In this document: in pieces, positions 9,410 through 41,969 of the stretch
Numbering within the stretch: position 1 is the stretch's first letter
How the letters are laid out: each line of letters opens with the position of its first letter
Source of the DNA: Herbihabitans rhizosphaerae
Lineage (GTDB): Bacteria; Actinomycetota; Actinomycetes; Mycobacteriales; Pseudonocardiaceae
Direction: 5' to 3'
DNA length: 64,000 nucleotides
Assembly: GCF_004216555.1 (NCBI RefSeq)
Contig: NZ_SGWQ01000002.1
Coordinates: 527,219 to 591,218, forward strand
Notes under the pieces: model-generated
Database searches by the model: none
Told to the model about the DNA's origin: nothing
Seen by the model: the letters and a program-made list of their open reading frames with translations, nothing else
Made by a program: the position numbers and the translations under genes

Positions 9410-11109
9410 CCGACGCGCTGGATCGCGAGCGCTACGCGGAGCTGTTCGGCCCGACCGCCGGCGACCGGATCAGGCTGGCCGACACCAACCTGTTGATCGA
9501 GATCACCGAGGACCGCGCCGCCGGGCCGGGCGGCTCCGGTGACGAGGTGGTTTTCGGCGGCGGCAAGGTGATCCGCGAATCGATGGGCCAGGGCACGGCC
9601 ACCCGCGCCGACGGCGCACCCGACCTGGTGATCACCGGCGCCACCATTCTGGACCACTGGGGCGTGATCAAGGCGGACATCGGCGTACGCGACGGGCGGA
9701 TCGTCGGCATCGGTAAGGCCGGCAACCCGGACACCATGGACGGTGTCGACTCCGCACTGGTGATCGGCCCGTCCACCGAGATCGTCGCCGGCAACGGCAA
9801 GATCGTCACCGCCGGCGGCATCGACTGCCACGTGCACTTCATCTGCCCGCAGCTCACCGACACCGCCCTGGCGTCCGGCGTCACGACCCTGATCGGCGGC
9901 GGCACCGGTCCGGCCGAGGGGACGAAGGCCACCACGGTGACACCCGGCGCGTGGAACCTGGCCCGCATGCTCCAGGCGATGGACGGCCAGCCGGTCAACA
10001 TTCTGTTGCTGGGCAAGGGAAACACCGTCTCCGAGGCGGCGTTGCACGAGCAGGTGCGCGCCGGCGCCGGCGGGTTCAAGCTGCACGAGGACTGGGGCAC
10101 CACCCCGGCGGCGATCGACGCCTGCCTGCGGGTCGCCGACCAGACCGGCGTGCAGGTCGCGATCCACACGGACACGCTGAACGAGGCGGGCTTCCTCGAG
10201 TCCACAGTGGACGCGATCGCCGGCCGGTCGATCAACGCCTACCACTCCGAGGGTGCCGGCGGCGGGCACGCGCCGGACATCATCCGGATCGTCTCGCAGC
10301 CGAATGTGCTGCCGTCCTCGACCAATCCGACCCGCCCGCACACGGTGAACACCATTGACGAGCACCTGGACATGCTCCTGGTGTGCCACCACCTGAACCC
10401 GTCGGTGCCCGAGGACCTCGCGTTCGCGGAGAGCCGGATCCGGCCGACCACCATCGCGGCCGAGGACGTGCTGCACGACCTCGGCGCGATCTCGATGATC
10501 GGCTCCGACGCGCAGGCGATGGGCCGGATCGGCGAGGTGATCATCCGGACCTGGCAGACGGCACACGTGATGAAGGACCGGCGCGGCGCGCTGGCCGGCG
10601 ATGGCGCGGCGGACAACCTGCGGGCGCGCCGGTATGTCGCGAAGTACACGATCAACCCCGCGATCGCGCACGGCGTCGCGCACGAGGTCGGCTCTGTCGA
10701 GGTGGGCAAGCTCGCCGACCTGGTGTTGTGGGAGCCGAAGTTCTTCGGTGTGCGCCCGTCGCTGGTGATCAAGGGCGGGTTCATCGCCTGGGCCGCGATG
10801 GGCGACGCCAACGCGTCGATCCCCACCCCGCAGCCGGTGTTCGCCCGGCCGATGTTCGGCGCCGCACCGCGAGCGGCCGCGGCGAGCAGCCTGCATTTCG
10901 TGGCTGTCGAGCCGGAGATCGACACGTGGACCCCGCGGTCGGTGATCACCGACACGCGCCGGATCGGCAAGGCGGACATGGTGCTCAACGACGCGCTGCC
11001 GGACGTGCGGGTCGACCCGGACAGCTTCGCGGTGCACGTGGACGGTGAGCTGATCGAGCCGGCACCGGTGTCCGAGCTGCCGATGGCGCAGCGCTACTTC
11101 CTGTTCTGA
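9406..11109 (+). CDS. ureC: Urease alpha (catalytic) subunit UreC
   Basis: The protein is 567 aa, full length. The nickel site is intact: CHVHFI (first histidines), [10 protein letters not shown] with the lysine that becomes carbamylated, [10 protein letters not shown], and [12 protein letters not shown]. The mobile-flap motif [14 protein letters not shown] includes the catalytic Cys and His. An [12 protein letters not shown]-type motif and the substrate-side [11 protein letters not shown] are present. It hydrolyses urea once loaded with nickel by UreF, UreG and UreD. One copy of the recurrent palindrome GTCCACAGTGGAC lies at 10200. The ureF ATG overlaps its stop by one base (TGATG). Confidence 0.98.
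10200..10212. repeat. Recurrent palindrome GTCCACAGTGGAC, copy in ureC
   Basis: Eight exact copies of GTCCAC(A/T)GTGGAC occur in the window. Here it reads Ser-Thr-Val-Asp in UreC (ESTVDAIAG). Confidence 0.8.
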
Positions 11110-28089: not shown

Positions 28090-28545
28090 CTACATGGTGG
28101 CGGCGGCGCTCTTGATGGCCTGGCGGATTCGGGCGTAGGTGCCGCAGCGGCAGACGTTCTCGATCGCGTCGATGTCGGCGTCGGTGGGATTCGGGTTGCT
28201 CTTGAGCAGCGCGACGGCGGCCATGATCTGGCCCGGTTGGCAGTAGCCGCACTGGGCGACGTCGTGGTCGATCCAGGCCTGCTGCACGGGGTGGAGCGTG
28301 TCGCCGTCGGCGAGGCCCTCGATGGTGGTGACCGTTCGGCCGGCGGCGTCGGCGACCGGGACGACGCACGGGTTGACCGCTTCGCCGTCGAGGTGGCTGG
28401 TGCAGGCCTTGCAGACGTCGATGCCGCAGCCGTACTTGGGTCCGCGGATCCCGAGCTTGTCGCGCAGCACCCAGAGCAGGGACAGGTCGGCCGGTGCGTC
28501 GACGGTGACGGATTCGCCGTTGACGGTGAAGGTGTACTTCGGCAT
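28090..28545 (-). CDS. oxiA: (2Fe-2S) subunit of molybdenum hydroxylase (OxiA/IorA type)
   Basis: The protein is 151 aa. The plant-ferredoxin cluster motif is [17 protein letters not shown] and a later Cys in NPCVVP. The second cluster domain has [18 protein letters not shown] and [14 protein letters not shown]. This is the small electron-transfer subunit of IorAB/aldehyde-oxidase enzymes. It has no signal peptide and is probably exported in complex with the Tat-signal-bearing large subunit. It is the last gene of lcp-oxiB-oxiA. In Streptomyces rubber degraders oxiAB next to lcp oxidises the aldehydes made by Lcp. Confidence 0.85.
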
Positions 28546-28553
28546 CGGGATCC

Positions 28554-30761
28554 TCAGCGGGGAAACGGTTCGAAATCGACCGGGAAATGGATGGGGAACA
28601 GGGTCGGCGTGGTTCCGGTTGCCCGGCGATAGGCGTTGGCGATCGCGCCGACCGCGGCGGGCAGTCCGAGTTCGCCCGCGCCGCCGGGTTTTCCGTGCGC
28701 CGGCATGACGACGATTTTCACGTCCGTGGGCGTGTTCTTCTGCCGGGCGTAGTGGAATTGCGAGTAGCTGCCCTCGAGTGGCAGCCCCTTGTCGATGTGC
28801 AGGCCGGCGCGCAGGGTGGTGGAGATGGCGTCGGTGAGCCCGCCGAGCATCTGCGCCTCCAACCCGCGAGGGTTGACGGGTTTGCCGACGTCGACGGCGA
28901 TAACCGCTTTGGTGACACGGGGTTCCGCGCGATCCCTGGCGTCGATCTCGACCAGGCACGCGGTGCACGACTTGTACTCGTCGTGGATGCCGATGCCCTG
29001 GGCGTGGCCGTCGGGCATGGGCCGGCCCCAGTTGCCGGCACTGGCGACGGCGTCGAGCACCGCGCGTTGCCGGTCGTTCTTGAGGAATTCGTGGCGAAAC
29101 GCGACCGGGTCCTTGCCCATTTTCTCGGCGATGAGGTCGACCATGATTTCTTCGGCGCCTCGGGTGTTGGCCGAATAGACCGACCGGAAGCTCGCGGTGT
29201 GCATTTTCAGTGGCACTTCGCTGAGCTGGTGTTTGGTGGCGCCGAAGTGATAGGGCGTGTGGATCGTGGTGAGAAACAGGGCCTGGGAAAAGGCCAGGTT
29301 TCCGATGATCGGCAGGTGGGTGACCGCGGCGCTGAGGATCTCGCCGATTCCGTGCCGGAAGTCGGTCTCCACGCTGGCGACCCGGTGTTCGAAGCTGAGC
29401 ACCTGGCCGAGCGCCATGGTCGCGCGGATCTTGTGGTGGCTTGCCGGGCGGGCCCGGCCGTGCCGCATGTCGTCGATGCGGCTCCACATCAGTTTGACCG
29501 GCCGGCCGATGGCGCGGGAGATCTGGGCGGCTTCCAGCGCGCCGTCGAAGAACAGGCGGCGGCCGAACGAGCCGCCGGCCTGGGTGACGTGCACGGTGAC
29601 CCGGTCGACCGGGAGACCGAGGGCCGCGGCGATGGTCTGCCGGGCGATGATCGGCGCCTTCAACCCAGACCAGATCTCGGCCCGGTCGGCCCGGACGTCG
29701 GCGATCGCGGAGTTGGTCTCCAGCGGAGCGTGGCTCACGAACGCGAACTCGAAGTCGGCGTCCACGGTCTGCACGAGCGGGTTCGGCGCCGGGAACCGTG
29801 GCGCCGCGTTCCGCAGTTTGGCGCTGATGTCCGAGTCGGACAGGTCGTCCACGGTGCCGCGATTCCAGGTGACCTCGAGGGCGTTCTTGCCGTCCAGCGC
29901 CTGACCGAAGGTCTCCGCCGTCACCCCGACGCCGGTCGGGATGACGCTGACGGCGACCACGCCCGGCATGGCCAGCACGGCCGCGCGGTTGTCCACCGAG
30001 CGCACGCTGCCGTTGATCGTCGGCGGCCGGCGCACCATCGTGGGCAACGCGCCGGGCACGTCGAGATCGAGGGCGTAGCGCACCTGCCCGGTCACGATGG
30101 CGCGCGCGTCCACGCGGGTGGTGGGCGTGCCGACCAGGGTGTGCTCGGACTCCGGTTTCGGTTGGGCCGCACCGGTTCGCAGCGTGCGGTCGGCCGCCGC
30201 CGCGGTGAGGGTGCCGTAGGTCGCGCGACGCCCATCCGGCGCGACGACCGCGCCGTCCCGGGTGTGAAGTTTCCTGGTCGGCAGGTCCCACAGTGTGCTC
30301 GCCGCGGCGAGCAGCCGGCCTCTGGCGGCCGCCGCGACGTGCCGGATCGGGTCGTACAGCGACCTGACCGAGTTGGAGCTGCCGGTGAGCTGGTTGAACA
30401 GCAGCTCGGGTCGGGCGTCTTCCAGGGTGACCGCCACGGCGCCGATCGGAAGGTCGAGCTCCTCGGCGACCAACATCGCCACGGCGGTCGTGATGCCCTG
30501 GCCCACCTCGGTGCGCGGGAGCCGGAGCCGGACGGTGTCGGTCACCTCGATGACGATCATGTGCGCGGTGGGCAGGCCGACCAGGATGCCCAGGTCGCCG
30601 ATGTCGGCGATCTCCGCGACGGCCGGGGGAGACGGGACGACCGCCGCCGCGGTCTTCGCGGTGCTGAGGTCCGCGGCGACGGTCAATACCGGCGCCGCCA
30701 CCAGAAAGGTGAGGAATCGGCGCCGTTCGATCCCGGTCGATTCCTTCGTGGAGCGTGCCAT
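28554..30761 (-). CDS. oxiB: Molybdopterin-binding subunit of aldehyde oxidoreductase (OxiB/IorB type)
   Basis: The protein is 735 aa. A twin-arginine signal lies at the N-terminus ([22 protein letters not shown]). The IorB-type architecture follows, with [64 protein letters not shown] and the C-terminal glutamate motif [24 protein letters not shown]. These enzymes hydroxylate aldehydes or N-heterocycles at a molybdenum-cytosine-dinucleotide site. It sits 25 bases after the lcp-like gene and eight before oxiA. Isoquinoline-type substrates are the alternative to polyisoprenoid aldehydes. Confidence 0.87.
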
Positions 30762-30786
30762 CGGATTCCCTTTCGAATCGCCGGGG

Positions 30787-31962
30787 TCAGGGGCGGTTCA
30801 TGTCGGGAATCTCGATTTTCGTTTCCTTGCCCTTGGTGAGATAGAACAGGATGTACCGACGGGCGGCCTCGTCGATGGCCCAGGCGGCCTCGGGCACCAG
30901 CGGCAGCGGTAGGAGGCCTTCGCGGAACGCCACCAGTGCCGGCCATGCGGCCTTGATCGCCGGGCCCCAGATGGGCTCGCGCCTGATCTGGTCCCAATCG
31001 GATACCTGGTCGCCGACCAGGTATCGGGCGAACGCGTTGCACAGTGGCCGGCTGATGCTGCCAGGACTGGTCTGCTCGGCGAGTTGGCCGAGCAGAATGT
31101 CGGTCAATTCGACACCTTCTCGGGTCGGGCCCATGTTCGGCGGCAGAACCTGGTCGGACTGGGCATTGGCCGCGGCCCAGTCGGCGGGAATGTATTCGTC
31201 CCTGATGCCGAGAAGATGTGCGGTCACCTGCCACACGTGCAGATAAGCCTCGGAGTCGGCGGGTTTGATCGAGACCTTCCATTCGAGCATCTTGCGCATG
31301 GCGTAGGTCGGCAGCGTGTGCCAGGTGACCAGCATGTCGTTCTGGCTGATCGGGATGTCGCCGTTCCAGTGCGGGGATTGCGGCAGCAGATGCCGCACGG
31401 CCGCGTGCACCAGTCGCGTCTTCACGGCCTCGACCACACACGAACCGTCGGGGCGATACGCGTTCAGCGAGCCGACGGCGAAACCGAGAATGCTGGTCTT
31501 GGCGACGCGGTCCTCCATATCGGCGCCACCCTTGGAGTAGTAGACCGCGCGCGCCTCCTTGGGAATGGCGGTGCTGAGCATGCCGCCGCCGAGACCGTTG
31601 AGCAGATTGAGGTACAGCCCACGGGACTTGTTGAACTCGGCGGCGATCTCCAGCTTGCGGGAATCGGCCCAGGACGGCATTCGGCGGGCGTACTCGACGA
31701 AGTCGCGCACGTAGCCCGGTAACCCGTCCGGCACCGGCTGGTCGTTGCGGGTCCAGTTCCACAGCGCGGCGTTGACCTGCTGGACCTCGCCGCGATCGAG
31801 GATCTTGGCGGCCACCGGGTCGGCCTCCGGATCCCACACCCACTTGGGGTCGGTACCCGCGCGGGGCAGTGCGTTGGCGGACGCGGCGCCCAGCATGCCC
31901 AGCGCACCCAGTGCCGCTCCACCACCGACGAGGAACATCTTGCGCCGACTGAGGTCATCCAT
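30787..31962 (-). CDS. lcp: Lcp-like (latex clearing, DUF2236) secreted oxygenase 1
   Basis: The protein is 391 aa from ATG 31962 behind GGAGGAG. The twin-arginine signal is LSRRKMFLVGGGAALGALGM, with cleavage after SANA. The DUF2236 core contains EARAVYYSKGGADMEDR, KTRLVHAAVRHLLPQSPHW and QNDMLVTWHTLP. The Arg of KTR and the His of TWH are plausible equivalents of the LcpK30 Arg and haem-ligand His. Lcp proteins are haem dioxygenases that cleave poly(cis-1,4-isoprene) outside the cell into aldehyde/ketone oligomers. It heads lcp-oxiB-oxiA and is divergent from a TetR gene. A non-rubber MpaB-like oxygenase remains possible. Confidence 0.8.
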   Translation of the reverse strand: MDDLSRRKMFLVGGGAALGALGMLGAASANALPRAGTDPKWVWDPEADPVAAKILDRGEVQQVNAALWNWTRNDQPVPDGLPGYVRDFVEYARRMPSWADSRKLEIAAEFNKSRGLYLNLLNGLGGGMLSTAIPKEARAVYYSKGGADMEDRVAKTSILGFAVGSLNAYRPDGSCVVEAVKTRLVHAAVRHLLPQSPHWNGDIPISQNDMLVTWHTLPTYAMRKMLEWKVSIKPADSEAYLHVWQVTAHLLGIRDEYIPADWAAANAQSDQVLPPNMGPTREGVELTDILLGQLAEQTSPGSISRPLCNAFARYLVGDQVSDWDQIRREPIWGPAIKAAWPALVAFREGLLPLPLVPEAAWAIDEAARRYILFYLTKGKETKIEIPDMNRP

Positions 31963-32085
31963 GCTCTGAACTCCTCCTTGAGTCTGAGACACCCGACTTG
32001 GTACCGTGATACGCGTCATGCAACGGTGTATCACAGGAGACCACAACCTGAGCCGTGACACCAGACCTGCGAGAAAGGCTGATTC
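31963..32085. promoter_or_regulatory. Divergent promoter with TetR-type operator
   Basis: An inverted repeat GTGATAC (32006-32012) / GTATCAC (32028-32034) with a 15-base spacer lies midway between the lcp-like gene and the tetR gene. A related half-site CACCGTATCA occurs at 35781-35790 before the second lcp-like gene, suggesting one regulator controls both. The lcp ribosome site is at about 31971-31979 on the minus strand. Confidence 0.6.
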
Positions 32086-32760
32086 GTGGAACCTGCATTG
32101 TCCGCTCTGATTACCACCGGTGGATCGGAGTCCATGCTGGAACGCGCGTTCGCGGAAGCGGTCGAGCGGAGTGAGGGTGAGGACGAGGTTATCGGGCGTC
32201 TGCTCGACGCCGCGTACGAGCAGTTCTGTCGCATGGGAATCCGGCGATCCACCATGGAGGACGTCGCCCGGCGGGCAGGAATGTCACGGATCACCGCGTA
32301 CCGGCGGATCGCCACGAAGGACGCGTTGGTCGAGCAGGTGGTGCGACGCGAGTTTCGGCGCTACTTCGACCAGTTCCTGCTGGACATCCGGCAGGCGAAG
32401 ACGGTCGGTGACCGTGTCGTACTGGGATTTGTCAGCTCACTGCAGGCGATCCGGCGCAATCCGCTGATCGGCGGCCTGATGGCGACCGAGCCGGAGATGG
32501 TCGTCCCGTCCTTGATCAACGACGGTGGTCGGACACAGGCGACGGTGCAGCGATTCGTCGCCGGCCAGCTTCGCGCGGAGCAGCAGGCCGGCAATGTGTC
32601 CGACGAGCTGAACGTGGAACTCGTGGCGGAAATGATGACCCGTGTCTCCACGTCTTTCCTGATCAGTCCCAGCCAGGTCATCGACCTGGATGACGACGAG
32701 CAATTGCGTGAGGTGGCCAGGAAGTTTCTCGTGCCCATGCTGGAACCAGTGAAGAGCTGA
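32086..32760 (+). CDS. TetR/AcrR-family regulator of the lcp/oxi locus
   Basis: The protein is 224 aa from GTG 32086. A 35-residue extension precedes the helix-turn-helix (RLLDAAYEQFCRMGIRRSTMEDVARRAGMSRITAYRRIATKDALV). The C-terminal ligand domain is TetR-like. TetR-type repressors regulate lcp in Gordonia and related rubber degraders. The palindrome in the divergent promoter is the likely operator, and fadD lies 11 bases downstream in the same transcript, so it is probably autoregulated. Confidence 0.88.
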   Translation: MEPALSALITTGGSESMLERAFAEAVERSEGEDEVIGRLLDAAYEQFCRMGIRRSTMEDVARRAGMSRITAYRRIATKDALVEQVVRREFRRYFDQFLLDIRQAKTVGDRVVLGFVSSLQAIRRNPLIGGLMATEPEMVVPSLINDGGRTQATVQRFVAGQLRAEQQAGNVSDELNVELVAEMMTRVSTSFLISPSQVIDLDDDEQLREVARKFLVPMLEPVKS

Positions 32761-32771
32761 TGAGGTAGGCA

Positions 32772-34640
32772 ATGACCACCGAGGACGACTGTGCGCGAGC
32801 GATAGCCGGACTGACGATTCCCGCACTCGTACATCGCAATGCGACCGAGTTCGGCGCGTTGCCCGCGTTGACCACAATGGACGCGCCCGATCCAGTCACA
32901 TTGACCTGGGCGGAATTGCGTGACGAGGTCGCGGCGCTCACCTTCGGCCTCGAGGACGCGGGCCTGCGGACGGGTGACCGGATGCTGATCATGATGTCGG
33001 CCAGGACCGAACACTGGATCACCGACCTGGCCGCCGTGCATCTCGGTGCGGTGCCGTGCACGGCTTATCACACGCTGAGCCCGGACCAGTTGCGTTACCT
33101 CGGCCGGCACAGCAAGGCCCCGGTCGTGGTGCTGGAGGGTCGCGCGGAACTCGACCGGTGGCGGCCGATCCTGGACGACCTGCCGGACCTGCGCACCGTG
33201 CTGGTGCTGGACGAGGACGCGATTCCGGATGCGGATCCCCGGTTCCGCGCACTGTCCGAGGTGCTCGACACCGGTCGGAAACACTATGTGCCGCAACGGT
33301 TCGAGGAACTCTGGCGCGCGGTGTCGCCCGAGGATCCGGTCACTCTGCTCTACACCTCGGGCACGACCGGCGATCCGAAAGGCGTCCTGCTCAGTCACAC
33401 CAACGCGCTGTATCAGGCGGCCGCACTCGAGGCGATGGTGCCGCTGCCCGCGCACGCGCCGAGCGTGTCCTACCTGCCGCTCGCGCACATCGCCGAGCGC
33501 GAGTTGGGCATCTACATCCCGATCTTCCGCGCCGGGCAGGTGCACATCTGCGCCGACCCCGGCCAACTGGTGGGCACGCTGCGCCAGGTGCGTCCGGTGT
33601 CGTTCTTCGGTGTGCCGAGGGTGTGGGAGAAGATGATCGCCGCCGTCCGGTCGATCGTCGATCTTCTGCCGGAAGGTCAGCCCGCCGCGTTCGAACGGGC
33701 CCACGCGCTCACGCTGCGCGCCTACCAACTGCGGTCGAACGGCGCGTCGGTCCCCAGCGGTCTCGCCAGGCAGGTCGCCGAGGTGGACGAGGCCGTGCTC
33801 AAGCCGATTCGCGAGATGTTGGGGCTGGGCAACGTGATCTGGGCGGGCAGCGGCGCCGCGCCCATTCCGGTCGATGCCCTGAACGACCTCGCCGGCCTGG
33901 GTATCGAGGTGCTCGAGGTCTGGGGGATGACCGAGACGACCGGGACGGCGACGATCAACACGCCGGAACGGTTCCGCCCCGGCACGGTCGGGCTGCCCAA
34001 CCCCGGCATGCGGGTGAAGCTCGCCGAGGACGGCGAGATCCTGGTCCGCGGACCGCTGGTGTGCCTCGGTTATCTCCAGCCGGACGGCAGCGTGGAGCCG
34101 CAGACCGACGCGGACGGATGGCTGGCCACCGGCGATGTCGGCACCCTCGACGCGGACGGCTACCTCACGATCGTCGACCGCAAGAAGGAGCTGATCATCA
34201 CCTCCAGCGGGAAGAACATCTCGCCGGCGAGGATCGAGGGTTTGCTGCGCGCGCACCCGCTGATCGGCCACGCGGTCGCGGTGGGGGACCGGCGGCCGTA
34301 CGTCACCGCGATCGTGGTGCTGGACGAGGAAACGGCACCCGCGTGGGCGCGCTCGCACGGCATCGACACGGCCGCCGACGATCCGACCGCGCTGGCCGAG
34401 CATCCCGCTGTCCTGGCCGAGGTGGAGAACGCGGTCACCGCCGCGAACGCCAAGCTGGCCAGGGCGGAGCAGATCAAGAAGTACCAGGTACTCGGGCGGC
34501 CATGGACGCCGGACAGCGGCGAATTGACGCCCACCTTGAAACTGCGCCGGCGGGTGATCGGGGAGCGGTTCGCCGACCTGATCGACGGCCTCTACGAAAC
34601 CGAACGGGAGAAATCGGATGACCATGCCCTTCACACCTGA
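32772..34640 (+). CDS. Long-chain acyl-CoA synthetase (FadD15-like)
   Basis: The protein is 622 aa. The AMP-binding P-loop is LLYTSGTTGDPKGVLLSH (about 195-212), then WGMTETTGTATIN, GWLATGDVG and IVDRKKELIITSSGKNISP, with a C-terminal lysine context AEQIKKYQVLGRPW. It activates fatty or isoprenoid acids as CoA thioesters. In this locus it would take the acids made by OxiAB. It overlaps the acyl-CoA dehydrogenase gene by 23 bases and follows tetR closely. Confidence 0.9.
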   Translation: MTTEDDCARAIAGLTIPALVHRNATEFGALPALTTMDAPDPVTLTWAELRDEVAALTFGLEDAGLRTGDRMLIMMSARTEHWITDLAAVHLGAVPCTAYHTLSPDQLRYLGRHSKAPVVVLEGRAELDRWRPILDDLPDLRTVLVLDEDAIPDADPRFRALSEVLDTGRKHYVPQRFEELWRAVSPEDPVTLLYTSGTTGDPKGVLLSHTNALYQAAALEAMVPLPAHAPSVSYLPLAHIAERELGIYIPIFRAGQVHICADPGQLVGTLRQVRPVSFFGVPRVWEKMIAAVRSIVDLLPEGQPAAFERAHALTLRAYQLRSNGASVPSGLARQVAEVDEAVLKPIREMLGLGNVIWAGSGAAPIPVDALNDLAGLGIEVLEVWGMTETTGTATINTPERFRPGTVGLPNPGMRVKLAEDGEILVRGPLVCLGYLQPDGSVEPQTDADGWLATGDVGTLDADGYLTIVDRKKELIITSSGKNISPARIEGLLRAHPLIGHAVAVGDRRPYVTAIVVLDEETAPAWARSHGIDTAADDPTALAEHPAVLAEVENAVTAANAKLARAEQIKKYQVLGRPWTPDSGELTPTLKLRRRVIGERFADLIDGLYETEREKSDDHALHT

Positions 34641-35760
34641 GCGGGAAGATTTCGCCGCGTCGGTCGCCGACTTCTGCCGTCGCGAGTGCGGCGCCCGTGA
34701 ACAACGCGACGCGCTGACCGACAACGGCCGGCATCAGCACAATTCGTGGCTGTACCAGAAAATGGCCGACCTTGGCTGGGTCGGTGCCGGTCTGCCCTCC
34801 GAATTCGGCGGATCCGACGCCGGAATGGTGGACGTCTGTCTCTTTCTGGAAACAACGGCGCGCGGTATGGCGCCGATCAGCGGATTCACCACGTCGACCA
34901 TCGTGGCCGGGGCGTATCAGCGATTCGGGTCACCGGAACAGCGCAAGCTCGTCCTCGGCGGTGTCGCCGGCGGTGAGGTCGCCGCGATCGCGATGTCCGA
35001 GCCCGAGGCCGGTTCGGACGTGGGAGCGCTGTCCTGCCGGGCCGAGCGGTGGGGCGATCACTGGGTGATCAACGGCCAGAAGACGTGGTGCTCCAACGCG
35101 CACATCGCGAACAGCATTCTCCTGGTCGCGCGCACCTCGTCCGACAAGGACAAACACAGTGGCCTGACCATGTTCCACGTGCCCGCCGACGTCGACGGGC
35201 TGCGGATCCACGGCATCGACACGATGGGCGGCCGCGAGGTCAACGACCTGTACTTCACCGACTGCGAACTGCCCGATGACGCGGTGGTCGGACAGGTCGA
35301 CGGCGCCTGGGGGCAACTGATGGCGGGCCTCAACCTGGAGCGCCTTGTGCTCGCCGCGGTCATGCTGGGCACCGCGCAGCGCGCGTTCGACGACACCGTG
35401 GCCTACATCAGCGAACGACGACAGTTCGGCCGGCCGGTCGGATCGTTCCAGGCTATTCGGCACCGCATCGCCGACCTGGCGACGGAAATCGAATGCTGTC
35501 GGCTGCTGGTGTACCGCGTGGCCGAACTCGTCGACGAAAACCCCGACCGGATGCTGCCGAAAGAGGCGTCGATGGCCAAACTCAAGGTCACCGAGACGGC
35601 CAAACGAGTGGCGCTGGAGGGTATGCAGATGATGGGTGGTTACGGCTATGCCACCGAATACGACATGGAGCGCCATGTGCGCGGCACGTTGATTTCCACG
35701 GTGTACGGCGGCACCAGCGAAATCCAGCGGGACATCATTGGCAAGACCTACGGTCTCTGA
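34618..35760 (+). CDS. Acyl-CoA dehydrogenase
   Basis: The protein is 380 aa. FAD and substrate motifs are IAMSEPEAGSDVGAL, WVINGQKTWCSNAHIANS, YISERRQFGRPVGSFQAIRHRIADL, MQMMGGYGYATEYDMERHVRGTLISTVYGGTSEIQRDIIGK. The catalytic glutamate position falls in the last motif region (YGGTSEIQ). It introduces the first double bond in beta-oxidation of the acyl-CoA made by the upstream synthetase. It is translationally overlapped with fadD. The next gene (lcp-like 2) is 55 bases downstream. Confidence 0.92.
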   Translation: MTMPFTPEREDFAASVADFCRRECGAREQRDALTDNGRHQHNSWLYQKMADLGWVGAGLPSEFGGSDAGMVDVCLFLETTARGMAPISGFTTSTIVAGAYQRFGSPEQRKLVLGGVAGGEVAAIAMSEPEAGSDVGALSCRAERWGDHWVINGQKTWCSNAHIANSILLVARTSSDKDKHSGLTMFHVPADVDGLRIHGIDTMGGREVNDLYFTDCELPDDAVVGQVDGAWGQLMAGLNLERLVLAAVMLGTAQRAFDDTVAYISERRQFGRPVGSFQAIRHRIADLATEIECCRLLVYRVAELVDENPDRMLPKEASMAKLKVTETAKRVALEGMQMMGGYGYATEYDMERHVRGTLISTVYGGTSEIQRDIIGKTYGL

Positions 35761-35815
35761 CCGCGCGAGACAAGTTGTTGCACCGTATCAATCCGGCCAT
35801 TTGAGGAGCGAAGAC

Positions 35816-37039
35816 ATGCGCGAACTCAGCAGGCGCAAGGTGCTGGTGACGGGTGGAGCGTTGGGCGCACTCGGTGCGCTGGGCGTGGCATCGACGGCGA
35901 ACGCGAACTCGGTGTGGAACTGGTCGCCGACGGGGTCGGTGGCCGGCGCCGGGAAGGGCGCCGACCCGCGATGGGTATGGGACCCGGAGGCCGATCCGCT
36001 GGTCGCCTCGTTGCTCGACCGGGGTGACGTGCCCAGGGTCAACGAGCTGCTGCGGACCTGGACCAAGAACGCCCAACCGCTGCCGGCCGGGCTGCCCGCG
36101 GACCTTCGGGACTTCATGGAGCGCGCACGTGCGCTGCCGCCGTGGACCGACCAGGGCAAGCTGGCCACCGCGGTGGAGTTCAACGAGAAGCGCGGGCTGT
36201 ACCTGGGCGTGTTGTACGGGCTGGCCAGCGGAATGATGAGCACGGTCATTCCGCACGAGGCGCGCGCGGTCTACTACTCGCAGGGCGGCGCGGACATGAA
36301 GGACCGCATCTCCAAGACCGCCAAGCTCGGGTACGACGTCGGGTCGAACAATGCCTATCAGCCCGACGGCGAGATGATCGTGACCTGCGTCAAGACCCGG
36401 CTGGTGCACGCGGCCGTGCGGCACCTGCTGCCGCAGTCCCCGCACTGGCCCGGCTCGGCTGACGAGGAGATTCCGATTAGCCAGGCGGACATGATGGTCA
36501 CGTGGCACAGCCTGCCCACGACCGTCATGCGGAAGCTGACCGCGTGGAAGGTGCCGATCCCCGCCGCGGAGTCCGAGGCCTTCCTGCACTCGTGGCAACT
36601 CGCCGGGCACATGCTCGGGATCAAGGACGAGTACATCCCCGCCTCGTGGGAGGAGGCCAACTCCCAGGCCAAGCAGGTACTCGACCCGACGCTCGCGCCG
36701 ACGCCGGAAGGCATCAAGCTGGCCGACATCCTGCTCAACCTCGGTCGCGAGATCGACGGCGGACTCCTCTCCAAGCCCGTCCTCGGCGCGTTCACGCGCT
36801 TCATGCTCGGCGACCGGATCGCCGACTGGCTGCACATCGGGCGCGAGCCGGTCTGGGACCCGCTGCTCAATGTGGCCTGGGGACCGTTCATCGCCGTGCG
36901 CGAAGGCCTGCTCCCGTTCCCGTTGGCGCCCAAGGCTTACTGGACTTTCGACGAGTTCCTGCGCAGGGCCGCTCTGCTGTTCCTGTCCGAGGCGAAACCG
37001 ATCAGCATCGAGATCCCGGAGACCAACCGACCGTCGTGA
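35816..37039 (+). CDS. Lcp-like (DUF2236) secreted oxygenase 2
   Basis: The protein is 407 aa from ATG 35816 behind GAGGAG. The Tat signal is LSRRKVLVTGGALGALGALGVASTANA. It is clearly paralogous to the 30787-31962 protein: DPKWVWDPEADP versus DPRWVWDPEADP, KTRLVHAAVRHLLPQSPHW in both, TWHSLPTTVMRKLTAWKV here. It has a four-residue insertion (SADE) between the shared Arg and His. It sits at the end of tetR-fadD-acad, so the two oxygenases bracket the locus on opposite strands, and a half-site of the TetR operator precedes it. Confidence 0.8.
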   Translation: MRELSRRKVLVTGGALGALGALGVASTANANSVWNWSPTGSVAGAGKGADPRWVWDPEADPLVASLLDRGDVPRVNELLRTWTKNAQPLPAGLPADLRDFMERARALPPWTDQGKLATAVEFNEKRGLYLGVLYGLASGMMSTVIPHEARAVYYSQGGADMKDRISKTAKLGYDVGSNNAYQPDGEMIVTCVKTRLVHAAVRHLLPQSPHWPGSADEEIPISQADMMVTWHSLPTTVMRKLTAWKVPIPAAESEAFLHSWQLAGHMLGIKDEYIPASWEEANSQAKQVLDPTLAPTPEGIKLADILLNLGREIDGGLLSKPVLGAFTRFMLGDRIADWLHIGREPVWDPLLNVAWGPFIAVREGLLPFPLAPKAYWTFDEFLRRAALLFLSEAKPISIEIPETNRPS

Positions 37040-37075: not shown

Positions 37076-38419
37076 ATGGATGTCGTGACGGCGATACGTG
37101 CACGAGGGACCGAACAGCGCCAGAGCCAGATCGTGAACGTGCTCGTCGACGCGTTCGAGGAGTTGATGCGGGCCGACACGACCGCGTTCCGCCGTCGGTT
37201 CCGCCGGATGGCCGACGCGCCGTTCTCGTTCTACCGGGGCTCCGCGTGCCTGTTCTACGCGGACATGGAGCACGACCCGGATCCGTGGGCGGACGAGCGG
37301 ACCAGCCGGGTGTGGATCCAGGGTGATCTGCACGCGGAGAACTTCGGCAGCTACATGGACTCCTCGGGCACGCTGGTCTTCGACGTCAACGACTTCGACG
37401 AGGCGTACCTGGGCTGTTTCACCTGGGACCTCAAGCGGCTGGTGGCCAGCGTCGCGCTGCTGGCGTGGAGCAAGGCGCTGTCCGACGACGACATCGCGGT
37501 GCTGATCGGCAGCTTCCTGCGTGCCTACGTGCGGCAGGTGCGCGACTACGCCGACAAGCCCGGCGACGAGCTGGTCCGGCTGCACATCGACAGCACCGAC
37601 GGAGTGCTGCGCGAGGTGCTGCTGCGGGCTCGGCTGCGCACCCGGATCGATCTGCTCGACCAGCTGACCGCCATCGAGGACTACGACCGCCGGTTCCACC
37701 GTGGCCCGGGTGTGCGGGACCTGGACGGTGACGAGCGGGACATCGTGCACCAGGCGTTCGAGTCCTATTTGGACACCATTCCGCGGCGCAAGCGGTTCGG
37801 CAGCATCACCTACAAGATCAAGGACGTGGTGGGGCGCACCGGGTTCGGCATCGGATCGGCCGGACTGCCGGCGTACAACATCCTGGTCGAGGGCCGCACC
37901 CAGGCGTTGGAGAACGACGTGGTGCTGTCGATGAAGCAGGGCAACGTGGCCGCGCCCAGCCGGATCGTGCCCGACCAGCGCATCCGGCACTACTTCGAGC
38001 ACGAGGGGCATCGGACCGCCGTGTCGCAGCGCGCGCTGCAGGCGCACGCGGATCCGTGGCTCGGCCACACCGAGATCGGCGGCACCGGTTTCGTGGTCGC
38101 CGAACTGTCGCCGTACGTCTACGACCTGGACTGGTCCGACCTGACCGAGCCGGCCGAGATGAGCCCGGTGCTGGCTTACCTCGGCCGGGCCACCGCCAAG
38201 ATGCACTGCGTGTCGGATTCCGACTCCGAGCAGACTCTGGTCGACTTCCAGAGCGAGGAGGCCATCGCCGCGGCGATCGGCGACGGCGAGGAGGAGTTCG
38301 TGCGCACGCTGACCGAGTTCGGGCTGGCCTACGCCGAACAGTCCCGGGAGGATCATCGGCTGTTCGTCAACGCCTTCCGCCACGGGCAGATCCCCGGCGT
38401 GCGGTCGGCCGACTCGTAG
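37076..38419 (+). CDS. DUF2252 family protein (kinase-like fold)
   Basis: The protein is 447 aa. Landmarks are FYRGSACLFYADM, RVWIQGDLHAENFGSYMDSSGTLVFDVNDFDEAYLGCFTWDLKRL, GSAGLPAYNILVEG, VLSMKQGN and LGRATAKMHC. The GDLHAENFG and DFDEA motifs resemble the catalytic and metal motifs of aminoglycoside-phosphotransferase-like kinases, which is how DUF2252 is usually related. No substrate is known. It follows the second oxygenase by 36 bases but has no obvious link to rubber metabolism. Confidence 0.8.
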   Translation: MDVVTAIRARGTEQRQSQIVNVLVDAFEELMRADTTAFRRRFRRMADAPFSFYRGSACLFYADMEHDPDPWADERTSRVWIQGDLHAENFGSYMDSSGTLVFDVNDFDEAYLGCFTWDLKRLVASVALLAWSKALSDDDIAVLIGSFLRAYVRQVRDYADKPGDELVRLHIDSTDGVLREVLLRARLRTRIDLLDQLTAIEDYDRRFHRGPGVRDLDGDERDIVHQAFESYLDTIPRRKRFGSITYKIKDVVGRTGFGIGSAGLPAYNILVEGRTQALENDVVLSMKQGNVAAPSRIVPDQRIRHYFEHEGHRTAVSQRALQAHADPWLGHTEIGGTGFVVAELSPYVYDLDWSDLTEPAEMSPVLAYLGRATAKMHCVSDSDSEQTLVDFQSEEAIAAAIGDGEEEFVRTLTEFGLAYAEQSREDHRLFVNAFRHGQIPGVRSADS

Positions 38420-39403: not shown

Positions 39404-40582
39404 TCAAACCCGGTGCTGGCGCCGCTCGGAGATCACCTGCGCGATGGTGTGCACGGGGCTGGTGCCCAGCCGGTGCCGGGCGGCGTCGTAGCCGCGGGTC
39501 GTGCGCGGGTCGGCGTGCCCGAGCAGGTCCTGTACCTGTTGCAGCGAAGCGCCGTTGGCCAGCGCGATCGTGCCAGCGGTCCGGCGGGTCGAGTGCAGCG
39601 TGATCGTTTCCCAGGTCGACACACCGATGTCGCGAGCCACCACCTTGAAGTGGTCATAGACGTTGCTCTGCACCATTTGTCGGCCGCCGGTCAGTTCGGG
39701 CCGACGCGGGTGCGGGGTCGACACGAAGACGAATCCGGACAGGTTCTCCACGGCGATTCCCGCCCGCCGCGCGCGCACGTCCCAGTACCGGTGCAGCAGG
39801 CGCAGGACGTCCTCGGACAGCGGAACCCAGTCGGCCTCGCCGCCCTTCTTGACGTAGTGCAGCACCGCGTACTTCTGGTGCCCGTCGGACTCGAACCCGA
39901 TGTCGCTGATCCGCGCGCGCAGCACCGGCGCGATCCGCAGGCCGGTGTGGAACATCAGGGTGAACATCGCGGCGTCGCGCCAGGCCGCCTCCTCGCCGAG
40001 CCGTTCGGCTCGCTCGACCAGACCGTCGAGGAACATGGCCAGTTCGGTGGCGTCGACGGTGGGGTAGGGCGAACGCTTGCGTCGCTTCGGCCGTTTGGTT
40101 CGCGCGGCGGGGTTGAGCACCGCGAGCTCGTTGTCCTGCAGGTAGCCGTACCAACTGCTCAGCCCGGACAGCCGCTTGCACACCGTATCCGCGGCCGGCT
40201 TGACCCTGACGAGTTCGCCGTCGACCCACCGCTGCGCGGTCATCTGCGCCTTCCAGGCGTCGGTGTCGGCACGGCGAGCCAGCAGAGGATCGCGGCCGAC
40301 GTGGCGACACCACAGCAGGAAATCCGCCAGCGCCAGGAAGTAGCTGCGTCGTGAGGTGTCCGCCAGGTCGACCAGCCAGCGCACGGTGAGCGTGCGCGGG
40401 TCGTAGGGATCGTCCGGGTCCGGCGGTGGCAGGACAGGGAGCAACGCGACGGTGGCGGCGATCTGTCGCTCCAGATCCGCCGCCTGCTCCGTACGCCGCA
40501 GCCCGAACTGGTCGAAGACCTCCAACGCGCTCGAAGTCTCGACCGCGGGTGCCTCCCACTTTTGCTCGCTGCTGCCGGCCAC
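39404..40582 (-). CDS. Tyrosine recombinase/integrase
   Basis: The protein is 392 aa. An N-terminal SAM-like core-binding domain lies at ~60-165. The catalytic domain has the first Arg in HTGLRIAPVLRARIS, the beta-hairpin Lys in VKKGGEADWVPL, LHSTRRTAGT (His-x2-Arg), LLGHADPRTTRGYD (His and the Tyr nucleophile). All catalytic residues are present, so it could be active. No attachment repeats, excisionase or phage genes were found around it, and it does not adjoin a tRNA. It faces the coiled-coil gene across palindromic sites. Confidence 0.88.
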   Translation of the reverse strand: MAGSSEQKWEAPAVETSSALEVFDQFGLRRTEQAADLERQIAATVALLPVLPPPDPDDPYDPRTLTVRWLVDLADTSRRSYFLALADFLLWCRHVGRDPLLARRADTDAWKAQMTAQRWVDGELVRVKPAADTVCKRLSGLSSWYGYLQDNELAVLNPAARTKRPKRRKRSPYPTVDATELAMFLDGLVERAERLGEEAAWRDAAMFTLMFHTGLRIAPVLRARISDIGFESDGHQKYAVLHYVKKGGEADWVPLSEDVLRLLHRYWDVRARRAGIAVENLSGFVFVSTPHPRRPELTGGRQMVQSNVYDHFKVVARDIGVSTWETITLHSTRRTAGTIALANGASLQQVQDLLGHADPRTTRGYDAARHRLGTSPVHTIAQVISERRQHRV

Positions 40583-40703: not shown

Positions 40704-41969
40704 GTGGTGACCAAGCAAGCCGTGTCGACCGGCGATGACCAGGTGTTTTCCGACAAGCTGGAGGACCGCCCCGGAAATCGGCCTGACGAAACCGGTGACG
40801 AAACGGCCGTCAAGGCACTCAGGGAGGCACGCCGGGCGTTGACGAGCGGCGTTCGCCGCTGCGCCTGCTGCGGCAACCCGCTGCCCCCGCCCACCCGGGA
40901 AGCCAAGAAACCACGCAAGTACTGCCCGGACGGCCAGGGCGGCTTCGAGGACAGCCACGGCATCACCTGCGCCGAACTCGGCCCGGCCAAGGAGAAGGTC
41001 GACCGGGTTTTCGACCACGCGGCTGTCCCGCCGGCCGGCCTCGAACGCCTCGGCGAGCAGATCGCGGCCGCCCAGGACCTGCTCGGTCCCGAGAGTCCGG
41101 TCACCCGGCTGCTCACCGGCCTGGCCGGCACCATGACCGGCGTCGGCGATCAACTGGAGAACACCGTCGCCGAGGCGCTGGCCCGCGCCGAGCGTGCCGA
41201 GGCCGACGCCCGCGAGGCGCGCGGCGAGAAGAACGCCATGGAGATCGAGCGGGACACCGCCACACACCAGGCCCAGCAAGCCGTACTCGACCGTCAGGCC
41301 GCCGAACGCGACCGCGACACGAAGGTCCGCGCCGCCGAGAACGCGGTGAAGACCGCCCAGGAAGATCAGCGCACCGCCGAACGAGCCCAGACCAAGGCCG
41401 AGGCCGAGCGCGACCTGTACCAGGAACAGGCCACACGAGCCGGCGAGGCGGCCGAACGCGACCGTGTGCGCGCCGAGGAGACCGCCCGCGAGAACACCGA
41501 GCTGACCACCAAGGTCACCGAACTCACCGAGCGGCTGCGGCAGGCTGGCGCCGATCTCACCGCGCAGCGCGAACAAACCCAGGCGACGCTCGACCGAATC
41601 GCGGCCGAGACCGAGGCCAAGATCGAGACGATCCGTGACAGGGCCCGCGAGGAGGTCGACGCCGAGCGCGTTCGCGCCGACGGGCTCGCCGCCGAGTTTC
41701 GTCGCGATCTGCAAGCCATCCGCGGTCGCCACACCACCCAACTCCGCCGCGTCGACCGCCAGTCGAGCACCGCCCTCGCCACAGTGCGACAACTACACCG
41801 CGACCTCGCCGCCGCTCGCCGCCGCCCGGCCGACGTCACCGACCGCGAATGCGCCACGTGCACCACACTCGACGACTTTCTCGCCGCGGCGGACGAGACC
41901 CTGGGCGAACTCGACGGCAGCCTGGCCACCCTCGACGTCGACGAACCAGCCGACGACCCTCGCACGTAA
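40704..41969 (+). CDS. Coiled-coil protein with N-terminal zinc-finger-like motif (KfrA-like architecture)
   Basis: The protein is 421 aa; GTG 40704 or 40707 are equally possible. The N-terminal ~90 residues contain RRCACCGNPLPPPTREAKKPRKYC and later ITCAEL, a probable Cys4 zinc site. Residues ~130-370 are an almost continuous heptad-like coiled coil rich in Glu, Ala, Arg and Gln. The tail has DRECATCTTLDDFLAAADETL with a second CxxC. Plasmid KfrA proteins combine DNA binding and a long coiled coil; this has similar shape but no recognised homology. It is divergent from the recombinase and probably autoregulated through the adjacent palindrome. Confidence 0.7.
   Translation: MVTKQAVSTGDDQVFSDKLEDRPGNRPDETGDETAVKALREARRALTSGVRRCACCGNPLPPPTREAKKPRKYCPDGQGGFEDSHGITCAELGPAKEKVDRVFDHAAVPPAGLERLGEQIAAAQDLLGPESPVTRLLTGLAGTMTGVGDQLENTVAEALARAERAEADAREARGEKNAMEIERDTATHQAQQAVLDRQAAERDRDTKVRAAENAVKTAQEDQRTAERAQTKAEAERDLYQEQATRAGEAAERDRVRAEETARENTELTTKVTELTERLRQAGADLTAQREQTQATLDRIAAETEAKIETIRDRAREEVDAERVRADGLAAEFRRDLQAIRGRHTTQLRRVDRQSSTALATVRQLHRDLAAARRRPADVTDRECATCTTLDDFLAAADETLGELDGSLATLDVDEPADDPRT

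Follow-up and report, generated by a model that had tools for sequence, protein, structure and literature searches.

A two-Lcp rubber-degradation locus of Herbihabitans rhizosphaerae with a single LcpR-type operator and an apparently replaced OxiAB pair

Introduction

When a bacterial rubber-degradation locus holds two rubber oxygenases and an aldehyde-oxidising pair behind one of them, is that pair the one usually linked to lcp genes? The question is raised by a locus of Herbihabitans rhizosphaerae (Pseudonocardiaceae), which lies in a window of 64,000 nucleotides (the whole stretch of DNA analyzed here; contig NZ_SGWQ01000002.1, positions 527,219 to 591,218, forward strand, assembly GCF_004216555.1), on the contig that we call C2, one of 25 in a 6.6-Mb genome. 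Open reading frames (ORFs) and a domain scan showed two divergent arms, oxiA-oxiB-lcp1 (minus strand) and tetR-fadD-acad-lcp2 (plus strand; acad encodes an acyl-CoA dehydrogenase). The gene list, strands, outer coordinates and divergent arms given in a preliminary description, made from the sequence without database searches, were borne out, as were the twin-arginine signals that it had assigned to both DUF2236 proteins and to OxiB: reading by eye, we found the motifs SRRKMFL in Lcp1, SRRKVLV in Lcp2 and ERRRFLTF in OxiB. Judged by homology, the locus is of a type already known, the natural-rubber degradation cluster with two rubber oxygenases. What is new here is the apparent replacement of OxiAB and the displacement of lcp2. 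We are confident, short of certain, of the reading as a whole: a two-Lcp rubber pathway with one LcpR operator and a replaced OxiAB.

Results

OxiAB of another subfamily

Compared with 27 other lcp-linked OxiBs, OxiB of this locus is at most 53.0% identical (median 51.9%), while those 27 share about 78% among themselves (median). OxiA behaves likewise, with a best value of 70.7% (median 67.1%) against lcp-linked OxiAs that are mutually about 82% identical. Among the matches listed, the closest relatives of OxiB (67-74% identity, the best, at 74%, in genome G226) lie elsewhere in related genomes. An OxiB match at E <= 1e-80 was present in 282 of 386 genomes of the family, many of these matches being weaker. 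We fetched 13 unlinked oxiB-oxiA pairs with 12-15 kb of sequence, and none had an lcp, a rubber-set tetR or a fadD nearby.

All trees were built with a quick method and carry support only from the Shimodaira-Hasegawa-like approximate likelihood ratio test (SH-aLRT). When 55 OxiBs were placed in one tree, all 27 that are lcp-linked grouped together (support 92), and OxiB of this locus is nested among 26 unlinked rows (100) as sister to that of G226 (94), on an end branch of 0.34. These 26 include the 13 pairs fetched with flanks; for the remaining 13, the Lcp match was on another contig or absent. If OxiB is forced into the lcp-linked group, the log-likelihood falls by 213.7 units (p 1.4e-5 in the approximately unbiased, AU, test), a grouping that we fixed before the tree was seen and after the identities were known. 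The OxiA tree agrees: a set with support of 100 is made up of 25 unlinked OxiAs and the OxiA of this locus, which is 85% identical to that of L136.

We then scored the alignment columns that separate the lcp-linked OxiBs (type I) from the unlinked ones (type II), leaving out two long-branch rows. At 73 such columns, OxiB of this locus carries the type II state in 64, the type I state in 2 and neither in 7, and the short insertion of the lcp-linked type is missing from it. Scored against one reference per type, all 41 other lcp-linked OxiBs (27 named records and 14 from 20 extra family regions, with L016 and L180 apparently one genome) were type I and 0 were type II.

By identity, tree, AU test and columns, the pair is not orthologous to lcp-linked OxiAB of the K30/OR16 type. 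The preliminary description had drawn a parallel with oxiAB of Streptomyces sp. K30, which fails, since OxiAB here falls in another subfamily than the lcp-linked OxiABs examined (27 OxiBs in the tree and 41 by score; those of K30 and of Actinoplanes sp. OR16 were not compared directly). The OR16 oxiB and oxiA are 71.6% and 78.0% identical to those of K30 (PMC7413915). According to these comparisons, a pair from another subfamily seems to have replaced the usual OxiAB, taking over its position behind lcp1. In the parts of the literature on lcp loci that we covered we found no report of such a replacement, which does not prove that none exists.

The pair keeps the features of its enzyme class. 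The glutamate of the OxiB GAGELG motif (Glu697) is present in 28/28 rows and the 8 cysteines of OxiA in 31/31, this locus included in both counts, and a strict RRxF[LIVM] motif is found in 27 of the 28 OxiBs, the exception having RRRFF. By sequence, the nearest solved chain to OxiB is 8gy3_C, the large subunit of an aldehyde dehydrogenase (E 4.7e-34). With MoCoBD domains and the GxGE glutamate, a 2Fe-2S subunit with 8 cysteines, and a twin-arginine translocation (Tat) signal judged by motif only, the pair has the features of a molybdenum hydroxylase of the IorAB/aldehyde-dehydrogenase type.

A second OxiB-OxiA pair (L148, C2:127821-130049) is present in the same genome; its OxiB, 49% identical to that of this locus, has a long branch adjacent to the lcp-linked group.

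Two Lcp oxygenases from two clades

Both DUF2236 proteins belong to PF09995, with one MPAB_Lcp_cat domain each, and align over their full length with LcpK30 (5o1l; phmmer E 1.2e-145 for Lcp1 and 1.2e-162 for Lcp2). At E <= 0.001, the two LcpK30 chains were the only PDB entries matched by either protein. Lcp1 and Lcp2 are 58% identical to each other. In the numbering of LcpK30, H198 and K167 are the haem ligands, R164 is near-invariant and Glu148 is the likely base (PMC6311187; residue roles also from PMC11169899). Across 133 aligned Lcps from the fetched loci, a set that includes both proteins and counts some genomes twice, E148, K167, T168, R195, H198 and R202 are kept in 133/133 and R164 in 132/133, with one gap, the other histidines being slightly variable. 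We rejected a placement of the two proteins outside Lcp, as both match LcpK30 and have its residues.

In a tree of 118 distinct Lcps, Lcp2 falls within a clade of 53 rows and Lcp1 within one of 28 (support 99 for each), and each clade has members in Pseudonocardiaceae, Micromonosporaceae, Streptosporangiaceae and Frankiaceae. The earlier assignment of both proteins to Lcp, which a phylogeny placing them outside the Lcp clade was to have overturned, is upheld by these well-supported positions and by the conserved active-site residues. Family membership suggests that both are Lcp rubber oxygenases that would bind haem b and cleave polyisoprene. Five other PF09995 proteins are encoded in the genome.

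One operator between the two arms

Among 76 divergent tetR-lcp spacers, 70 are different, this locus included, with near-duplicates from the same genome among them. The exact palindrome GATAC-N15-GTATCA was found in 36 of the 70, always with an arm spacing of 15, compared with a mean of 0.04/70 after single-base shuffling of the spacers; many of the other 34 have, by eye and uncounted, a similar element with GTTTCA or another change. The copy between lcp1 and tetR is the sole exact match in the genome. A motif at the assumed start of tetR, GTGGAACC / GGTTCCAC, recurs in 30/70 spacers. The regulator itself is related to the other lcp-linked TetRs, being at most 77.9% identical to them (70 rows, including this one), and, as in the LcpR-VH2 type, its gene lies next to lcp, the spacer between the two diverging genes carrying a conserved palindromic operator. 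Control by TetR, as foreseen in the preliminary description, is thus in keeping with the locus, and its predicted mode is the known one of LcpR, with binding of the regulator to this operator.

The spacer before lcp2 (35761-35815) has a GAGGAG ribosome-binding site and one GTATCA half-site. We found no second full operator before lcp2 at up to 2 mismatches, in a scan whose overall yield was not above chance (9 versus 5.62 expected). A sigma-70 scan found 0 promoters, and of the terminator-like sites (10 found versus 4.1 expected) none lies in the acad-lcp2 or lcp2-DUF2252 gaps. Transcription of lcp2, we infer, comes from the tetR-fadD-acad arm.

Two further elements came up. Inside the lcp1 coding sequence, at 31000-31026, GATACCTGGTCG-N-CGACCAGGTATC is one mismatch away from the operator pattern. 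In the tetR-lcp spacers of L012 and L024, a second pair of GTATCA-type half-sites lies closer to tetR, a hint of a second TetR site in some Actinoplanes relatives.

Gene order in other lcp loci

To place the locus in context, we scanned a genome collection with exact peptide patterns and obtained 57 other lcp loci; Lcps lacking those patterns are missed. Counts depend on score thresholds and on the fetched flanks, with several loci cut by contig ends, so that they are lower bounds; neither are they independent, as several loci come from one genome seen twice (for example L016, L076 and L180). An Lcp at E <= 1e-60 was present in 124/390 genomes of the same family, this one included.

Two lcp genes with oxiB and tetR occur in at least 26 of the 57 loci, and the same set with fadD and acad in at least 11; at least 8 have the order acad-fadD-tetR divergent from lcp-lcp-oxiB-oxiA. 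The literature also describes two-lcp loci in Actinoplanes OR16, Dactylosporangium AC04546, Microtetraspora AC03309 and Streptomyces CFMR7 (PMC7413915, PMC11169899, PMC8538451), and a figure of the Microtetraspora sp. AC03309 region shows the set of two lcp, oxiB, tetR, fadD and acad (PMC8538451). Having two oxygenases does not make a locus exceptional.

In the Lcp2 clade, 41/53 rows are divergent from an adjoining tetR and only lcp2 of this locus sits behind acad, which is what is peculiar to it among the loci seen. In the Lcp1 clade, oxiB directly follows in 18/28 rows, and within the 118-row set the lcp1 of this locus is the sole Lcp with a divergent tetR on one side and oxiB directly behind. 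We had considered the whole gene order to be unique and rejected this: L170, among 20 later regions, has the six-gene order found here, acad-fadD-tetR divergent from an Lcp1-clade lcp-oxiB-oxiA, and in L048 fadD-acad directly precede an Lcp1-clade gene on the same strand.

On plasmid p174 of Gordonia polyisoprenivorans VH2 (L097, 8001-13538), the plasmid lcp is adjoined by genes for a FAD:protein FMN transferase and a ferric-reductase-like membrane protein, with a NADH-ubiquinone-oxidoreductase-F-like protein and a ferredoxin also beside it, possibly an extracytoplasmic electron-transfer set.

FadD and acyl-CoA dehydrogenase

FadD and the acyl-CoA dehydrogenase (ACAD), which the preliminary description had counted as parts of the pathway, both recur near lcp in other genera. 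The best NCBIfam score of FadD was that of FadD11, below its cut-off. The nearest lcp-linked relatives found for the two are in L016 (Actinophytocola algeriensis), with 76.8% identity for FadD and 83.6% for ACAD; an 87.7% row from L076 is a partial piece, apparently of the same gene as that of L016. In ACAD, GLNLERLVLA aligns with GLDLERLVLA of human isovaleryl-CoA dehydrogenase (1ivh), the glutamate of the GLxxERLxLA pattern being present in 20/20 ACAD rows, this locus included, and the YEGT glutamate of the short-chain enzyme (YEGTSEIQ) is missing. This places ACAD with the isovaleryl-/long-chain type. Isovaleryl- and long-chain acyl-CoA dehydrogenases, enzymes that accept branched substrates, typically have their glutamate at this position, and this would suit methyl-branched oligo-isoprenoid CoA esters.

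Features and neighborhood

The features of the locus are collected in Table 1. Over the longest ORFs we chose the starts ATG 31962 (lcp1) and ATG 35816 (lcp2), because the N-termini then become MDDLSRRKM and MRELSRRKV. Gaps are short, with 25 bp between lcp1 and oxiB and an overlap of fadD and acad.

Table 1. Features of the rubber-degradation locus, in window coordinates
Feature	Position	Strand	Description
oxiA	28090-28545	-	Fer2 + Fer2_2; predicted [2Fe-2S] small subunit of molybdenum hydroxylase, 'type II'
oxiB	28554-30761	-	MoCoBD_1 + MoCoBD_2; predicted molybdopterin large subunit, Tat-type N-terminus, 'type II'
lcp1	30787-31962	-	MPAB_Lcp_cat; putative rubber oxygenase, predicted secreted
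LcpR-type operator	32007-32033	both (32007-32032, 32008-32033)	GATAC-N15-GTATCA, between lcp1 and tetR
tetR	32086-32760	+	TetR_N; putative LcpR-type regulator, GTG start assumed
fadD	32772-34640	+	AMP-binding domain; putative acyl-CoA ligase
acad	34618-35760	+	Acyl-CoA_dh domains; Glu241 at the isovaleryl-CoA-dehydrogenase position
GTATCA half-site, single	35785-35790	+	upstream of lcp2; possible relic, weak
lcp2	35816-37039	+	MPAB_Lcp_cat; putative rubber oxygenase, predicted secreted

We rejected the DUF2252 gene that follows lcp2 as a part of the system, as it is below threshold in the other lcp loci listed. Further along, a recombinase of the Phage_integrase family (39404-40582) is followed by a divergent gene for a charged, probably coiled-coil protein with no Pfam match (40704-41969), and the two may mark the edge of a mobile element near the rubber locus. 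An Rfam match to 5_ureB_sRNA at 9576-9865 (-; 75.4 bits) probably reflects similarity to urease-gene sequence and not a small RNA. The genome also encodes TatC, has XdhC-type factors at two sites and, elsewhere, carries three Mce blocks.

Discussion

Taken together, the locus would work as follows. Lcp1 and Lcp2, exported by the Tat system, would cut the polymer outside the cell into oligo-isoprenoid keto-aldehydes, and a Tat-exported OxiB, carrying OxiA along, would oxidise the aldehyde to the acid outside the membrane. After uptake, perhaps through one of the three Mce blocks, FadD would make the CoA ester and the acyl-CoA dehydrogenase would begin beta-oxidation. The LcpR-type TetR would control both arms from the one operator between lcp1 and tetR, with lcp2, behind acad, dependent on the tetR-fadD-acad arm. 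The usual lcp-linked OxiAB would have been swapped for a pair of a paralogous subfamily that elsewhere lies away from lcp. Of the pathway proposed in the preliminary description, the outline (cleavage, oxidation, CoA activation, beta-oxidation) stands, and the OxiAB of K30 type does not.

As to the history of the locus, we lean, by a modest margin over even chances, to the view that the canonical OxiAB was displaced by a recruited pair of the general subfamily, later adapted to rubber aldehydes, as its long branch might indicate, and that lcp2 came to be governed by the opposite arm of the one LcpR operator.

Several observations weigh against parts of this reading. A DUF2252 gene (37076-38419, +) begins 36 bp behind lcp2, unlike in the other lcp loci listed, so that the end of the operon is uncertain. 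With one mismatch allowed, the operator pattern has 32 further matches by strand across the genome, compared with 5 for a reversed control, and weaker operator sites therefore cannot be judged. The type II OxiAB also occurs in genomes with no Lcp at E <= 1e-60 (G006, G009, G012, G016 and G019) and is hence not rubber-specific. The electron acceptor of such hydroxylases in acetic-acid bacteria is a cytochrome c subunit; no OxiAB electron acceptor was found in the locus, and the ten genes scanned included no cytochrome gene. Finally, the literature is divided on the export of OxiAB: a putative Tat signal on K30 OxiB is mentioned in PMC9782182, and no Tat site is given for AC04546 OxiB in Table 4 of PMC11169899.

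One could argue, as suggested earlier, that each of the two oxygenases is specialised, either for one polymer (cis or trans) or for one range of chain lengths (long or short). In favor of this, they come from two distinct clades, each with good support, which several families have retained together. Against it, the active-site residues that we compared are identical in both, and the tandem OR16 enzymes Lcp1 and Lcp2 each take up oxygen when given natural rubber latex (4.02 and 1.17 in the units of the paper; PMC7413915). We equate OR16 Lcp1 with our Lcp2, and OR16 Lcp2 with our Lcp1, solely from the order of genes in three Actinoplanes-type loci (L012, L020 and L024). We hold specialisation to be a tentative idea, with the balance clearly on the other side.

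Slightly less likely still is that OxiAB is a chance neighbor and that the aldehydes are oxidised by some other enzyme. Its subfamily does occur independently of lcp, and aldehyde dehydrogenases, intracellular ones, are used by Gordonia and Nocardia, N. farcinica oxidising after uptake (PMC9782182). Against a chance association, oxiBA lies on the same strand, 25 bp behind lcp1, in the relative place of the usual OxiBA. It is this position that suggests that type II OxiAB acts on rubber aldehydes here. For OxiAB in general, the part that it plays in rubber degradation and its place there have been deduced rather than proven, the products of its oxidation having yet to be identified according to PMC9782182 (2022).

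It is quite improbable, in our view, that the locus serves another isoprenoid, such as squalene or plant polyprenols: FadD and ACAD are generic acyl enzymes, which speaks for it, but the Lcps have the residues and the close match of LcpK30, and their Tat-type motifs suggest an extracellular substrate. That an ordinary lcp-linked OxiAB merely evolved fast in this lineage is hardly credible, for although the pair occupies the usual site immediately after an Lcp1-clade gene, has retained the Tat-type N-terminus, glutamate and cysteines, and has a long end branch, fast evolution leaves the higher identity of OxiB to unlinked than to lcp-linked OxiBs unexplained, and the diagnostic columns, the AU test and OxiA all speak for the other type. 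Base composition is uninformative on a horizontal transfer of oxiAB, because G+C at 28-31 kb (0.68-0.71) is inside the range of the neighborhood.

If the replacement in place is real, the locus would be a natural experiment on the requirements of the OxiAB step. With a type II pair standing where the usual OxiAB would be, the two kinds of pair can be compared directly by giving them identical Lcp products, and with only one exact operator the regulation is easily tested. The pair is also an alternative candidate aldehyde oxidase for use in rubber recycling.

Comparison with known systems

Full-length homology, the haem-ligand and catalytic residues and a Tat-type N-terminus are shared with LcpK30 of Streptomyces sp. 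K30 (5o1l, 5o1m), the difference being that two copies from two clades, known from sequence, stand here in one locus. The operator has the same plan as the LcpR-VH2 site of lcp2VH2, GATACAGAGAAGCATAGACTGTAACTCGGTTTC (PMC7413915), a likeness between the sites themselves. By the trees, OxiA and OxiB are members of the unlinked OxiAB/IorAB-like pairs of the same genome family, and they differ in standing next to lcp, which is absent near the 13 pairs fetched with flanks.

Among two-lcp loci, that of Actinoplanes sp. OR16 resembles ours in its two lcp genes, oxiBA, adjacent TetR and related operator sequence, but there lcp1-lcp2-oxiB-oxiA form one unit, whereas our lcp2 belongs to the opposite arm and our OxiAB appears to be from another subfamily (PMC7413915). 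Microtetraspora sp. AC03309 differs in gene order, going by the legend of Fig. 3 in PMC8538451. Saccharopolyspora hirsuta (L036) and Streptomyces aurantiacus (L042) likewise have codirectional tetR, fadD and acad divergent from the oxi arm, in the order lcp-lcp-oxiB-oxiA; in contrast to our locus, both lcp genes are on that arm and OxiAB is type I. L170, from a genome of the same family (G378), shares the six-gene order described above, but its OxiAB is type I and its Lcp2-clade gene has its own second tetR beyond oxiA, where ours follows acad.

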